Shown here piece after piece: positions 14,286 through 38,886 of a stretch of 43,907 nucleotides of DNA. The notes below the pieces were generated by a model that worked only from the letters and a program-made list of their open reading frames with translations, made no database searches and was not told where the DNA came from. Within the stretch, counting starts at the first letter, position 1. Every line of letters starts with the position of its first letter. The position numbers and the translations under genes were made by a program. Origin of the DNA: Bacteroidaceae bacterium (lineage in GTDB: Bacteria > Bacteroidota > Bacteroidia > Bacteroidales > Bacteroidaceae); the NCBI GenBank assembly GCA_017541265.1, contig JAFXZK010000104.1, positions 1-43,907 on the forward strand, read 5' to 3'.

Positions 14286-14410
14286 GTCCCCGTACTTATT
14301 GCCATAAGTCCCTGTACTTATCCTCATAAGTCCCCGTACTTATTGCCATAAGTCCCTGTACTTATCCTCATAAGTCCCTGTTCTTATCGCCATAAGTACA
14401 GGGACTTTTT
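14282..14410 (+). repeat. ATAAGTCC-type 22-bp palindromic array 2, ending as a terminator
   Basis: Six units start at 14282, 14304, 14326, 14348, 14370 and 14392, exactly 22 bp apart. The first unit overlaps the protease stop codon. The spacers alternate between TGCC and CCTC. The last two units pair as AAGTCCCTGTTCTTAT with ATAAGTACAGGGACTT (one mismatch, loop CGCC) and are followed by T5, so the array ends as an intrinsic terminator of the protease operon. Confidence 0.88.
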
Positions 14411-22762: not shown

Positions 22763-24064
22763 TTAACCCTTTACCTTTTTTACCTTTTTACCTTTTAATC
22801 TTTTCACCTTTACCAAGTAGTAGCTTATCGGTCGCGTGAGCAAACACAATGCCAAAGGTACGGTTATTTTCGCAAATACCTGCGGAATCCATGGGGAAAA
22901 TAACAAGAACAGTGCCAAAAGCGCAAAGTAGAAGGCATACCAAAGGGTTCGCTTGTGCTTGATGGCAGATTTTATGACAAGTGGAATGCCAACAAGTGCG
23001 ATGGGGTTGAATAACCCAATCTGCCAGTTGGAGTCCACCGCAGGATGTTCCGAGAAGAAGAACATGAAGGTGAGCAGCACGCCTGCCGCGCCCTGTGCAA
23101 GCAGGAGCAGAACGTCCCAAAGCCAGAATATACGTTTCGTCCAGACCTCGAGCAACAGGATAAACAAGCAAAGAGCACCGAAGGCAAGACAGGCTTGCAA
23201 AGGAAGAAGCCCCCTCCCCGCTCCCCCTTTGGGGGAGTGCTTGGGAAACTCAGAGGTTTGCGGCTTGGACACTCCCCCAAAGGGGGAGCTGGAGGGGGCT
23301 TTTTTCACCAGCGGCCGCATGTCGCCTCTTGGTGTGCAGATGAAGGCGCCGTCGAAAGCTTTCATCAAGTTTTCAGGCACGAACATGGCTGCATGTGCGG
23401 ACGGGATGGTGTCCACCTCGCTGCCAAGCAGCAGGTCGTTGCCTTCCTGCGCCCAGGGATGCTCTGCCGTGTAGCGGTGCAGTATCTCGCGGAAAGTTTG
23501 GTGGGGTAGGGTGTCGGGGTACTGGATGCGACCGTTGATGGCCTGCTCCACCATGTCGCGCACCATTGTCGTGCAGTTCTTGTAGAGGAAGTTGTAGCGG
23601 TAGTTGCGGTTCTCCGGCAGGCAGTTCTCGATGAGACGGCTTGTCAGTCGCCGCGCCTCGGCGGGCGTCAGGTTCAGTTCCTGCTCCGTGATGCTCGAGC
23701 CGCGCTCCTCGTATTCCCTGACGAAGTATTCCCATGGGACTGGCTGCACCATGTAGTCCGTCTGCCCGAGCACGAAGCGCCAGGCGAAGTACGGTTTCGA
23801 CAAGTCGAACACGCCGTAGTTGAAGACGATGGACCCACCCCAATCATCCCATAAAGGGGAGATTTCCTCTTCAAAGTTCTCTCCCTTTAAGGGAGAGTCA
23901 GAGAGGGTCTTTTCGCACCTGATGGCTGTGTGCCCGTACAGCTCATAGACCTCCTGCCCCGGCGAACAGGTGAGCAGCGTCACGCGGATGCTGTCCTGCT
24001 GAGCGAAACAATGAGCCTGTAAGGACAAAACAAGGCACAAAAATATGACAGTCTTCTTAAACAC
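22763..24064 (-). CDS. DUF4105/Lnb-type membrane protein carrying two in-frame palindromic insertions
   Basis: This 433-residue protein has a signal peptide (1-21) and a periplasmic papain-like domain with Y-G-H-T-A-I-R (His45) and F-L-Y-K-N-C-T-T (Cys164), followed by several membrane helices (about 290-420). The family (DUF4105) includes proteins named Lnb for lipoprotein N-acylation; I infer a similar envelope role. Two stretches do not belong to the family: residues 52-77 (element at 23832-23910) and 254-286 (element at 23207-23301). Each lies in a loop, one just after His45 and one before the first membrane helix. The last 15 residues (K-V-K-R-L-K-G-K-K-V-K-K-V-K-G) are encoded by a short purine-rich repeat. 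The GTG start at 24064 lies 5 bases after the -7 box. Confidence 0.82.
   Translation of the reverse strand: MFKKTVIFLCLVLSLQAHCFAQQDSIRVTLLTCSPGQEVYELYGHTAIRCEKTLSDSPLKGENFEEEISPLWDDWGGSIVFNYGVFDLSKPYFAWRFVLGQTDYMVQPVPWEYFVREYEERGSSITEQELNLTPAEARRLTSRLIENCLPENRNYRYNFLYKNCTTMVRDMVEQAINGRIQYPDTLPHQTFREILHRYTAEHPWAQEGNDLLLGSEVDTIPSAHAAMFVPENLMKAFDGAFICTPRGDMRPLVKKAPSSSPFGGVSKPQTSEFPKHSPKGGAGRGLLPLQACLAFGALCLFILLLEVWTKRIFWLWDVLLLLAQGAAGVLLTFMFFFSEHPAVDSNWQIGLFNPIALVGIPLVIKSAIKHKRTLWYAFYFALLALFLLFSPWIPQVFAKITVPLALCLLTRPISYYLVKVKRLKGKKVKKVKG
23207..23301. repeat. G/C-rich palindromic element in frame inside the Lnb-type gene (site 2)
   Basis: The outer inverted repeat AAGCCCCCTCC (23207-23217) matches GGAGGGGGCTT (23291-23301) perfectly. 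Inside are CTCCCCC-TTT-GGGGGAG (23221-23237) and CTCCCCC-AAA-GGGGGAG (23272-23288), the same hairpins as at 21029. It is 95 bp long, contains no stop in the coding frame, and encodes a Ser/Pro/Gly-rich linker. Confidence 0.88.
23832..23910. repeat. Palindromic element in frame inside the Lnb-type gene (site 1)
   Basis: GACCC (23832-23836) and GGGTC (23905-23909) form the outer repeat. CTCTCCC-TTTAA-GGGAGAG (23879-23897) is a clear inner hairpin. The other half is eroded (CCC at 23848 with GGGG at 23856). It adds about 25 residues directly after the first conserved motif and keeps the frame. Confidence 0.72.
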
Positions 24065-24558: not shown

Positions 24559-24625
24559 ATAAAGAACGTGGGTCTTTGGCAATAAGTACGTGGACTTATG
24601 GTCATAAGTCCACGTACTTATAAAA
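24559..24625. repeat. ATAAGTCC-type palindromic array 3
   Basis: Units start at 24559 (degenerate), 24582 and 24604. The last two pair perfectly over 18 bp (ATAAGTACGTGGACTTAT with ATAAGTCCACGTACTTAT, loop GGTC). The central bases differ from those of the other arrays, but the two arms match each other. Confidence 0.85.
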
Positions 24626-24695: not shown

Positions 24696-24834
24696 TGTTC
24701 GGGCGGATTTGCAATCCGACCGCATTGGATATAGGGATTTGCAATCCCGACATAATGTTGTCGCACTGCAAATGTTTTTATTGCATTATAAATGCTTATA
24801 TTCAATACTGGCGGATTGCAAATCCGCCAGAACA
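24696..24834 (+). repeat. MITE-like element, copy 1
   Basis: It begins TGTTCGGGCGGATTTGCAAT and ends with the inverted form ATTGCAAATCCGCCAGAACA. Copy 2 (31232-31353, opposite orientation) shares the ends and internal stretches such as GGATATAGGGATTT and AAATGCTTATATTC. There is no transposase gene inside (139 bp). Extra partial end copies follow at 24831-24888, where CGCAAATCCGCCAGAACAG occurs twice. Confidence 0.87.
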
Positions 24835-27930: not shown

Positions 27931-28048
27931 AAAAAGTGAAAAAGTGAAAAAGCAAGACGCATTAACATCAAGAGTATAAGATATTATGAAACGCATAGTA
28001 TTCCTGTTCTTTTTTCACCTTTTCACTCTTTCAATTTTTCACCTTTTA
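27931..28048 (+). repeat. Complementary short-unit repeats flanking the lptC start codon
   Basis: The upstream arm AAAAAGTGAAAAAGTG (27931-27952) pairs with CTTTTTTCACCTTTTCAC (28009-28026) over about 16 bp with one mismatch and one bulge. The ATG at 27986 lies in the loop. The downstream units (TTTTTCACCTTTTCACTC, then TTTTTCACCTTTT) encode the hydrophobic core of the LptC signal peptide. Confidence 0.75.
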
Positions 28049-32751: not shown

Positions 32752-33783
32752 ATGATAAAAATAGGGATTTTAGGGGCAGCCGGGTATACGGGAGGCGAAC
32801 TGATAAGAGTGCTGCTGGGGCATCCTGAAGCTAAGATTATTTTTGCTAATAGTGAATCGAATGCCGGCAATCTCGTGAGTGAAGTCCACGAGGGCTTGAT
32901 TGGCGAGACTGACCTCTGCTTCACAGATGAGATGCCCTTTGACAAGGTGGATGTCGTCTTCTTCTGCTTCGGACACGGCAAGAGCGAGACGTTCCTCGCG
33001 GAGCATGAGATTCCTGCGAACGTCAAGATAATCGATCTTGCTCAGGACTTCAGGGTTAATTCACAATTTCACAATTTCACAATTTCACAATTGACAGGCG
33101 ACGCAATTGTCAAATCGTCAAATCGTCAAATTGTCAAATTTGTCTATGGTCTGCCCGAGACTCATCGCTCGGCCATAAAAGGCTGCCAGCACCTTGCCAA
33201 TCCCGGATGCTTTGCCACTTGCATACAGCTCGCCATGCTGCCAGCTTTGAAGGCAGGCATCATCAGCGGTGACATCCATGTCAACGGCATTACGGGCAGC
33301 ACGGGAGCTGGTCAGAAGCCTGGCGCAACGACACATTTCTCCTGGCGCAACGACAATATCTCCGTCTATAAGACCTTCACGCACCAGCATCTTTTAGAGA
33401 TAAACCAGACGGTACAGGAGCTTTGCCCCGGCTACGCGGGTCGTGTGCTCTTCATTCCCCAGCGCGGCTGCTTCACGCGCGGCATCTTCGTGACGGCTTA
33501 CGCCAAGTGCGACCTGCCGCTCGAAGAGGTGCAGCGCATCTATGCCGACTACTACCGGGACGCTGCCTTCACGCACTTCGTCCTGAAAAGCCCCGATATG
33601 AAGCAGGTCGTGAACACCAACAAGGCACTCGTCTATGTGGAGAGGTTCGAAGACCAGCTCCTGATGGTGAGCTGCATCGACAATCTGCTGAAGGGAGCCG
33701 TCGGGCAGGCCGTGCAGAACATGAACCTCATGTTCGGCCTTGACGAGACAGAAGGGCTGCGATTGAAAGCGTCAGCTTTCTAA
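32752..33783 (+). CDS. argC: N-acyl-gamma-glutamyl-phosphate reductase with an in-frame repeat insertion
   Basis: This NADPH-dependent reductase makes N-acyl-glutamate semialdehyde. The 343-residue protein has the Rossmann motif G-I-L-G-A-A-G-Y-T-G (5-14), the catalytic N-P-G-C-F-A-T with Cys153, and later 'HTHQHLLEI'-like ligand His residues (K-T-F-T-H-Q-H). Residues 103-129 (N-S-Q-F-H-N-F-T-I through R-Q-I-V-K) are not family sequence: they sit between I-D-L-A-Q-D-F-R and F-V-Y-G-L-P-E and are encoded by an 8-bp repeat palindrome. Because the frame and catalytic residues are intact, the enzyme is probably active. Confidence 0.95.
   Translation: MIKIGILGAAGYTGGELIRVLLGHPEAKIIFANSESNAGNLVSEVHEGLIGETDLCFTDEMPFDKVDVVFFCFGHGKSETFLAEHEIPANVKIIDLAQDFRVNSQFHNFTISQLTGDAIVKSSNRQIVKFVYGLPETHRSAIKGCQHLANPGCFATCIQLAMLPALKAGIISGDIHVNGITGSTGAGQKPGATTHFSWRNDNISVYKTFTHQHLLEINQTVQELCPGYAGRVLFIPQRGCFTRGIFVTAYAKCDLPLEEVQRIYADYYRDAAFTHFVLKSPDMKQVVNTNKALVYVERFEDQLLMVSCIDNLLKGAVGQAVQNMNLMFGLDETEGLRLKASAF
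33058..33138 (+). repeat. 8-bp-period palindrome in frame inside argC
   Basis: The left arm has ACAATTTC three times (TTTCACAA units). The right arm has GTCAAATC-type units (TTTGACGA/TTTGACAA when read on the other strand). The arms form an imperfect hairpin around ACAGGCGACG, with a mismatch at the same place in each unit. It is 81 bp, that is 27 codons, without a stop. Confidence 0.85.
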
Positions 33784-36703: not shown

Positions 36704-37762
36704 ATGATGAAGAGCTTTCTTAATGTAGAAGACCTTGGCGACCTGAAGCAAGCGCTAGCAGAAGCCAGGGAGATAAAAGCCAATCGCTATAAGTACGACA
36801 CCCTGGGCAAGAACAAGACCTTGCTCATGGTGTTCTTCAACAACAGCCTCCGCACGCGCCTCAGCACGCAGAAGGCAGCCATGAACCTTGGCATGAATGT
36901 CATCGTGCTCGATGTCAATGCCGGTGCATGGAAGCTCGAGACGGAGCGCGGCGTCATCATGGATGGCGACAAGAGCGAGCACCTGCTGGAGGCCATCCCC
37001 GTCATGGGCTGCTACTGCGACGTCATCGGCATCCGCTCTTTCGCAGGTCTTACAGACCGCGAGTACGACTATGCCGAAACCGTCTACCATCAGTTTGTGC
37101 AGTATAGTGGCAAGCCCGTCTTTGCGATGGAAACCGCAACAGTACACCCTTTGCAGGCCTTCGCAGATTTGATAACAATCGAAGAGCAGACCCACCCCCA
37201 GCCCCTCCTTTGTAGGGAGGGGAGTCAAGATGCAACAACTATCAGCTCCTCTCCCCACAAGGGAGAGGCTGGGAGAGGGTCTGTCCCCAAAGTCGTCCTC
37301 ACCTGGGCGCCTCATCCTAAGTCCTTGCCGCAAGCTGTGCCCAACAGCTTCGCCCAGTGGATGCTGGCAGCCGGCGTGGATTTTGTTGTCACCCACCCCG
37401 AGGGCTACGAACTTGATCCCCGCTTCACCAAAGGCGCACGCATCGAGTACGACCAGCGCAAGGCTTTCGAAGGCGCAGACTTCATCTATGCCAAGAACTG
37501 GAGCTGCCCGGGTGTGACCAATCCAGACAACTATGGGAAGATACTGCATGACTATCATCAGATGATGCATTGGACTGTCGATGCCGAGCACATGAGCTGG
37601 ACCAACAACGCCAAGTTTATGCACTGCCTGCCCGTGCGCCGAGGCATGATTGTCACCGACGATGTCATCGAGGCTCCCACCTCCCTCGTCATCCCCGAAG
37701 CTGCCAACCGCGAAATCTCGGCGACAGTCGTCCTCAAGCGCATCTTGCAAAGCATGAAGTAA
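36704..37762 (+). CDS. argF': N-succinylornithine carbamoyltransferase with an in-frame palindromic insertion
   Basis: This enzyme transfers carbamoyl to N-acylornithine. The 352-residue protein has the carbamoyl-phosphate loop N-S-L-R-T-R (47-52) in place of the usual S-T-R-T, then H-P-L-Q (148-151) and H-C-L-P-V-R-R. It closely follows the Bacteroides fragilis N-succinylornithine enzyme as I remember it. Residue 91 is Ser in G-D-K-S-E-H; in that family Pro, Ser, Ala or Val at this point gives succinylornithine specificity and Glu gives acetylornithine specificity. Residues 162-194 (E-Q-T-H-P-Q-P to R-G-S-V) are an insertion that makes it about 34 residues longer than the B. fragilis enzyme (about 318). 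Two ATG codons start the gene. Confidence 0.9.
   Translation: MMKSFLNVEDLGDLKQALAEAREIKANRYKYDTLGKNKTLLMVFFNNSLRTRLSTQKAAMNLGMNVIVLDVNAGAWKLETERGVIMDGDKSEHLLEAIPVMGCYCDVIGIRSFAGLTDREYDYAETVYHQFVQYSGKPVFAMETATVHPLQAFADLITIEEQTHPQPLLCREGSQDATTISSSPHKGEAGRGSVPKVVLTWAPHPKSLPQAVPNSFAQWMLAAGVDFVVTHPEGYELDPRFTKGARIEYDQRKAFEGADFIYAKNWSCPGVTNPDNYGKILHDYHQMMHWTVDAEHMSWTNNAKFMHCLPVRRGMIVTDDVIEAPTSLVIPEAANREISATVVLKRILQSMK
37187..37283. repeat. G/C-rich palindromic element in frame inside the transcarbamylase gene
   Basis: The outer inverted repeat is CAGACCCACCCCCAGCC (37187-37203) with GGCTGGGAGAGGGTCTG (37267-37283), two mismatches. The inner hairpins are CCCCTCC/GGAGGGG (37202-37222) and CTCTCCC-CACAA-GGGAGAG (37249-37267). 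Length is 97 bp, and the frame is open. Confidence 0.87.
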
Positions 37763-38773: not shown

Positions 38774-38798
38774 CGCAGGGGGGCGGCCATAGATATGA

Positions 38799-38886
38799 AA
38801 AAGTCCGCGTACTTATGACGATAAGTGCGCGGACTTTTTCATATAAGTGCAGGGACTTATGGCAATAAGTGCAGGGACTTTTGACA
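38799..38886 (+). repeat. ATAAGTCC-type 22-bp palindromic array 4
   Basis: Units start at 38799, 38821, 38843 and 38865, exactly 22 bp apart, with spacers such as GACG, TCAT and GGCA. Units 1 and 2 pair over 18 bp with one G-T wobble and are followed by a T run (38835-38839), so this can stop transcription after the nitroreductase. 38887-39020 shows no other feature. Confidence 0.85.

Follow-up and report, generated by a model that had tools for sequence, protein, structure and literature searches.

Rickettsia palindromic elements (RPE) and Wolbachia palindromic elements (WPE) are palindromes of ~100-150 bp that belong to several families and lie in frame in conserved genes, e.g., for DNA polymerase III alpha and tRNA-related enzymes (PMC2229807, PMC3767692, PMC4224334, PMC10969869). 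RPE-4, -6, and -7 occur at shared loci, and the description of them leaves undecided whether these are hotspots or a single diverged insert (PMC3767692). Intragenic REPs (GTAG and CGTC superfamilies; RAYT transposases) are described as short palindromes that form dimers in opposite orientation, some of them in ORFs. Their hosts include tRNA synthetases and pseudouridine synthases, different REPs occupy about the same site of Xanthomonas recB, and CGTC repeats are present in Bacteroidetes (PMC3733652). Judging from titles in reference lists, protein-coding palindromes have so far been treated as characteristic of Rickettsia and Wolbachia, with REPs reported in the genes of some other bacteria (PMC3733652). 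Among the open-access papers listed, no account of in-frame palindromes in Bacteroidota was found.

The locus compared here lies in a 43,907-nt stretch of a Bacteroidaceae genome (GCA_017541265.1, contig JAFXZK010000104.1; the genome is G000 below), and the whole of this stretch is referred to as the window. An ORF on the + strand (36704..37762), assigned from profile and structure-sequence matches, codes for an N-succinylornithine transcarbamylase (SOTCase) of 352 aa and is host to a palindromic element named F1 (37187..37283, +; QTHPQPLLCREGSQDATTISSSPHKGEAGRGSV). F1 consists of two inverted REP-like units. The left arm (37187..37224, +) is of type A (GACCCACCCCC...) and the right arm (37246..37283, +) is the reverse complement of type B (GACCCTCTCCC...). 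These 38-nt arms are 84% complementary and are separated by a 21-nt spacer, with an inner hairpin at 37248-37255/37261-37268. The RNA fold reaches -66.6 kcal/mol; shuffles average -34.4 (z -8.5), and 0 of 200 equaled it. A preliminary description of this DNA had reported a palindrome at this position, and it is real; the 17-bp outer repeat given there is the outer part of the 38-nt arms. Inverted repeats in the window exceed chance: a scan of its full length at the chosen strength found nine, compared to 0, 0, and 0 in three Markov-1 controls. No known Rfam RNA matched the window at gathering scores.

F1 is in frame and free of stops within the 352-aa ORF, and the motifs HPLQ, SLRTR, and HCLP around it are intact; the preliminary description was correct on both points. 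The best solved relative is the Bacteroides fragilis SOTCase (1js1), to which phmmer aligned residues 2-162 and 193-351 and left 163-192 without a counterpart. This agrees with the stretch of ~33 added residues (162-194) described earlier, but the net gain is smaller, at ~27 residues (81 nt). The distance from HPLQ to TWAPH is 52 residues here versus 25 in many relatives, and the loop proper has 36 aa versus 9 aa in the commonest class of the genus. The element itself, at 97 nt, is not a multiple of three and exceeds the 81 nt gained, so some of the native loop has been lost or remodeled, and a clean 97-bp insertion is ruled out. The NCBIfam model PRK04523 scores the protein at 274 bits in two stretches, and the insert may explain why this falls below the curated cut-off of 288.

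The SOTCase fold is described as knotted, with its last 70 residues passing through a proline-rich loop, and the succinyl group as being anchored by H176, R178, and R278 (PMC4581275). With an offset of 28 from 1js1 (our own mapping), H176 corresponds to H204, ~11 residues after the insert, and the position of R178 reads K206. Purifying selection acts on the gene outside the loop. Ten pairs of genes were compared: dN/dS was 0.036-0.087 in five soundly aligned pairs in which both members have inserts and 0-0.03 in three further pairs, and two pairs (0.51 and 0.38) were set aside with their right side thought to be misaligned. The five pairs speak against reading the insert-bearing gene as a pseudogene. 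Intact motifs and low dN/dS suggest that the insert-bearing enzyme works. The preliminary description had read the locus as an in-frame palindromic insertion that the enzyme tolerates and that resembles RPE, and this reading is supported.

Other palindromes occur in the window. An Lnb-like gene on the - strand (22763..24064; Pfam Lnb_N, 5TMH_Lnb) contains two in frame, both on the - strand. One is a short F1-type element (23830..23911; KTLSDSPLKGENFEEEISPLWDDWGGSI) recognized by a weak model match (28.9 bits, G000:C25) and its reading frame, and the other (23220..23289; SSSPFGGVSKPQTSEFPKHSPKGGAGRG) was identified by the inverted-repeat scan and the ORF. Near the SOTCase gene, a semialdehyde dehydrogenase gene (32752..33783, +), which we take to be ArgC-like, has a palindrome in frame in the NAD-binding domain (33063..33134, +; ACAATTTCACAATTTC...) that resembles, by eye, the F3 type described below. 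A further family (ATAAGTnC..GGACTTAT) has four copies in the window, at 745-806, 14350-14407, 24582-24621, and 38793-38844, apparently between genes. Two more inverted repeats are found at 24696-24834 (139 nt, in a stretch without a long ORF) and at 27931-28031 (at the start of an LptC-like gene).

The 97-nt palindrome has 46 matches in its own genome. A covariance model built from 16 copies produced 78 matches over both strands of G000, which reduce to 41 distinct places. The F1 unit is bipartite, with two inverted REP-like arms around a variable middle. The arms are mostly of type A or type B, in all four combinations, and the ends read AGACCC...GGGTCT, with GTAG present only inside the small hairpin. 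Full copies (19 measured) are 97-119 nt long, and 52 of the 114 reading frames over them are open. F1 sequence was identified in 100 of the 139 genomes of the genus, including at least 28 matches, counted on both strands, in G018. At the family level, the model matches 27 of 121 genomes, with those of the genus counted in. F1 is mobile in the sense that its copies are dispersed and that relatives have short alleles.

Most copies are inside genes. In G000, 35 of the 41 places are in frame with a long ORF on both sides, according to our reading of ORF context and Pfam matches. These ORFs comprise 32 with Pfam domains, the SOTCase (NCBIfam and 1js1), and two (C22 and C32) without a domain. The remaining six places include four that are intergenic or 5' of a start, one C-terminal extension, and one that is not assignable. 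The analogy to RPE drawn in the preliminary description holds in this respect, as the palindrome is dispersed over 41 places and 35 of these are in frame inside long ORFs. Hosts related to translation are AlaS, ArgS, LeuS, LysS, TsaD, TruA, TrmO, a SpoU methylase, and PrmA, while others include RNase R, topoisomerase, a UvrD-like helicase, RpoN, and many glycosidases. About ten of the 35 host genes act in translation (aaRS, tRNA/rRNA modification, and PrmA), which may be more than would be expected of such genes. Two of the 35 (L256 and L266) have the element directly behind an apparent signal peptide. The topoisomerase gene (G000:C5; L017, L263) appears to contain two in-frame elements or more, perhaps three; a sulfatase gene (L007, L259) appears to contain two.

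Other members of the genus have a similar pattern. Of the top F1 places there, 20 were sampled; an ORF with a Pfam domain holds the element in frame at 19 of them, and one (L385) is without a domain. Genes in this set code, among others, for M24 peptidases, a Cys/Met PLP enzyme, glucuronate isomerase, GH123, GH35, helicases, LpxB, a tRNA methyltransferase, and QueG. As a contrast at the family level, in-frame copies in domain ORFs account for 4/5 in g30, 3/3 in g37 (L366 is under the Pfam cut-off), and only 4/12 of the sampled matches in g35 (L351, L352, L359, and L360). The g35 result means that the search method does return intergenic copies.

SOTCase matches were identified in 126 of the 139 genus genomes; 117 were taken and 116 loops were read (the loop of G112 was unreadable). 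The loop is short (8-14 aa) in 90 of the 116 and long (15-56 aa) in 26, and all long loops are in frame and stop-free. Close homologs that are free of the palindrome are therefore shorter in exactly the loop that contains it. Of the long loops, 14 fold with z <= -2.9 and 12 do not, so not every long loop is a palindrome. The long loops hold three palindrome types of unrelated sequence, along with singles and one F2 within an F1. Insert DNA groups accordingly into an F1 superfamily, F2 (GGGGCAAGGAGCAAGG...), F3 (ATTCACAATTCACAATT...), and singles; F2 is linked to F1 solely through the nested insert of G020. On a tree constructed without the loop, loops of at least 15 aa require at least 16 changes (11 forced by starred branches), and the 17 rows judged palindromic, which include the 14 with z <= -2.9, require at least 12 (seven forced). 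Long loops with strong folds are also present in Prevotella MAGs, such as L232 and L184, among 80 named loci (79 read, L247 unreadable; folds here are without a shuffle control). Unrelated palindromes have landed repeatedly in the SOTCase loop.

This pattern extends to other genes. The flanks of 12 F1 sites were joined without the element and searched in 12 close relatives, and the sites were read among the matches listed. This yielded 70 stretches from 11 genes; TrmO was in the query, with its sites outside those read, and HADH and TopB were each read in one relative. All but one of the stretches (69/70) are in frame; the exception, from a DUF4922 gene in G005 (L322), was unreadable, its left flank not being found in the stretch. 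Among the matches listed, at least eight of the 12 queried sites have a different palindrome at the same position in some relative. At least 33 of the 70 stretches have at least 60 nt of extra sequence, and 24 of these 33 fold with z <= -2.9, with at least one such insert at each of the eight sites (again among the matches listed). The other nine, among the same matches, fold no better than z -2.9, three of them above -0.6; these weakly folding inserts include L307 (F2-like, z -1.9) and the low-complexity L321 and L338. The TsaD site illustrates the range: the loop is 11 aa in six relatives, and the other six have inserts, which are F2-like in G152, G053, and G013 and of three other kinds in G113, G020, and G063. 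LeuS, SpoU, DUF4922, PrmA, ArgS, TruA, and LysS behave in the same way. Short loops at these sites can be palindromic too: the ArgS loop of G063 (L293) has no F1, and 31 nt of it form a palindrome (CCGTTTGTTGCGTTGCCAACGCAACAAACGG) that is unrelated in sequence.

F2, whose loci were located independently of the F1 sites, is itself a dispersed family. Matches in five sister species, counted as pieces on both strands, number 51 in G013, 43 in G152, 34 in G053, 63 in G020, and 67 in G113; G000 has three. By our own reading, at least 17 of 30 F2 loci are in frame in genes. Both flanks are shared with one of 58 F1 loci in 9 of 29 F2 loci, or 8 of 28 without the SOTCase seed. The shared loci are SOTCase, LeuS, RNase R, an M24 aminopeptidase, a UvrD-like gene, and a glycosyltransferase-2 gene; in terms of distinct sites, there are 47 for F1, 12 for F2, and six that are shared. 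Preservation of frame, several families at one site, and nesting of one family in another are all observed. Two side observations concern F2. In PrmA, a stretch of ~180-190 nt that includes a 129-nt F2 insert is identical in two species (L326 in G113 and L328 in G020), and the remaining gene is mostly 70-90% identical; the identical stretch looks like a recently exchanged tract. Half-F2 units are arranged in tandem with a 42-bp period at G053:C63:63215-63418.

The reading that we consider very probable is that these are selfish, non-autonomous palindromes that turn over in permissive, safe-harbor loops of proteins. F1 would be a non-autonomous selfish repeat, made of two REP-like units in inverted order, that spreads through the chromosome. 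Copies that land inside genes would survive where they keep the frame, introduce no stop, and occupy a loop able to accommodate ~20-55 extra residues, and insertions that break the frame would presumably be removed by selection. If the number of tolerant loops is limited, then these loops act as safe harbors, and in different species the same loops would be filled by unrelated families (F1, F2, F3, and others). Turnover could involve new insertions, palindromes landing within older ones, or replacement of one by another. The insert would be translated into a flexible, exposed loop and would be about neutral.

F1 would be moved by an enzyme acting in trans. Y1 transposases are present in five of 10 genomes tested and were not found in G018, despite its F1 matches, which makes them a candidate mobilizer only. 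A scan that finds stems in element-bearing loci detected no 9-bp stem within ~1.5 kb of three Y1 genes. One F1 copy lies ~1.6 kb from a Y1 gene (G000:C49), but it is inside tsaD. No target-site duplication was recognized by eye at the sites compared.

A further step, which we put forward tentatively and regard as somewhat short of probable, is that proteomes of the genus hold a small, fixed set of permissive loops, on the order of a hundred, that serve as lasting harbors. Unrelated families would succeed one another in these loops, partly by landing in or replacing older palindromes. A rough capture-recapture estimate from 47 F1 sites, 11 F2 sites without the seed, and five shared sites gives ~103 sites, and uneven sampling of conserved genes biases this number downwards.

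Turnover might instead be directed, with an enzyme or recombination that targets existing palindromes or a DNA feature and swaps them in place, so that sites recur by targeting and not by tolerance. This is possible, though we consider it rather less likely than not to be the case. It would account for unrelated families reusing the same positions and for nesting, in which F2 blocks of 84-85 nt are placed at the tip of an F1-type hairpin in three loci: SOTCase (G020) and SpoU (G113 and G020), the SpoU pair being orthologous. Some short alleles also have AGAC-like ends or a small palindrome, such as LeuS in G101 (AAGACCTCGGAAGGTCTT). The intragenic excess of F1 fits as well. Intergenic DNA makes up ~11% of the window (from the sum of ORFs), and if insertion were random and then filtered by frame, 27-45% of copies would be expected to be intergenic (the value varies with the filter), compared to at most 6/41 observed (P = 0.02 at 30%, 0.002 at 36%, and 0.00004 at 45%). 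Survivorship may explain part of this low share, and pure tolerance may not be the whole story. However, many occupied sites have, by eye, no outer remnant of an older element, and the AlaS site is filled in G000 alone among 13 genomes; none of the 12 relatives has an insert there, 11 of them having an allele of 2 aa and the twelfth one of 7 aa.

It is unlikely that selection keeps the hairpins, whatever their sequence, for a benefit to the host, either because coding hairpins act in the mRNA (ribosome pausing or stability) or because the peptides are useful linkers. Strong folds of unrelated sequence at one site, the low intergenic share of F1, and the presence of several elements per gene (topoisomerase and sulfatase) are in line with such a role. 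Paired positions in the F1 arms, however, do not covary clearly beyond shuffles (the covariation score was reached by 32/500 and the number of pairs changed on both sides by 144/500), so the arms vary almost independently, and a clearly covarying functional stem was rejected. Arm types A and B mix, and 90 of 116 relatives do without an insert in SOTCase. Very improbable, finally, are explanations without a mobile element, namely a low-complexity loop that slipped or expanded locally or an artifact of assembly: a few long loops resemble local duplications (SEYSECSEYSENSDSSDKRKRP in G113) and the genomes among the named loci are mostly metagenome-assembled, but the same sequence is at 41 places and in 100/139 genus genomes, and assemblies from several projects agree, containing both the same and unrelated palindromes, so that an assembly artifact was discarded.

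A small, fixed set of lasting harbors, if this tentative reading is true, would make the loops of essential enzymes a niche with its own succession of selfish palindromes. In the ~116 related genomes, one per species, the same positions are occupied by families of unrelated sequence, and short and filled alleles exist alongside nested ones. This makes the question of hotspots versus a diverged insert (PMC3767692) directly testable. The naturally occurring inserts also map the places at which essential enzymes (tRNA synthetases, TsaD, topoisomerase, and a knotted transcarbamylase) seem to accommodate 20-55 foreign residues, which is useful for protein engineering and for interpreting insertions in metagenomic genes.

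Compared to known systems, F1 is a non-autonomous inverted-repeat element, as MITEs are, and a search for a MITE-like parent insertion sequence, which covered Y1_Tnp only, found none; a P. gingivalis element differs in being described as strictly intergenic (PMC10969869). F1 is like intragenic REPs in being a short palindrome and an inverted dimer within ORFs. It is unlike them in its ends (AGAC/GTCT, neither GTAG nor CGTC) and in being mostly intragenic, whereas REPs are described as mostly intergenic (PMC3733652). The likeness to RPE is one of behavior: a palindrome dispersed over 41 places, with full copies of similar length, lies in frame and without stops in conserved protein genes (35/41 in G000), and relatives have short alleles. 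Unlike RPE, the host is not in Rickettsiales but in Bacteroidota, and close named matches are Bacteroidaceae or Prevotella-like MAGs from the ruminant gut. The intragenic share (35/41) differs from the nearly half reviewed for R. conorii (PMC10969869), and here families of unrelated sequence occupy the same sites in sister species. The behavior itself is already known from RPE, WPE, and intragenic REPs; what seems to be new is its occurrence in another phylum and the sharing of sites by unrelated families.
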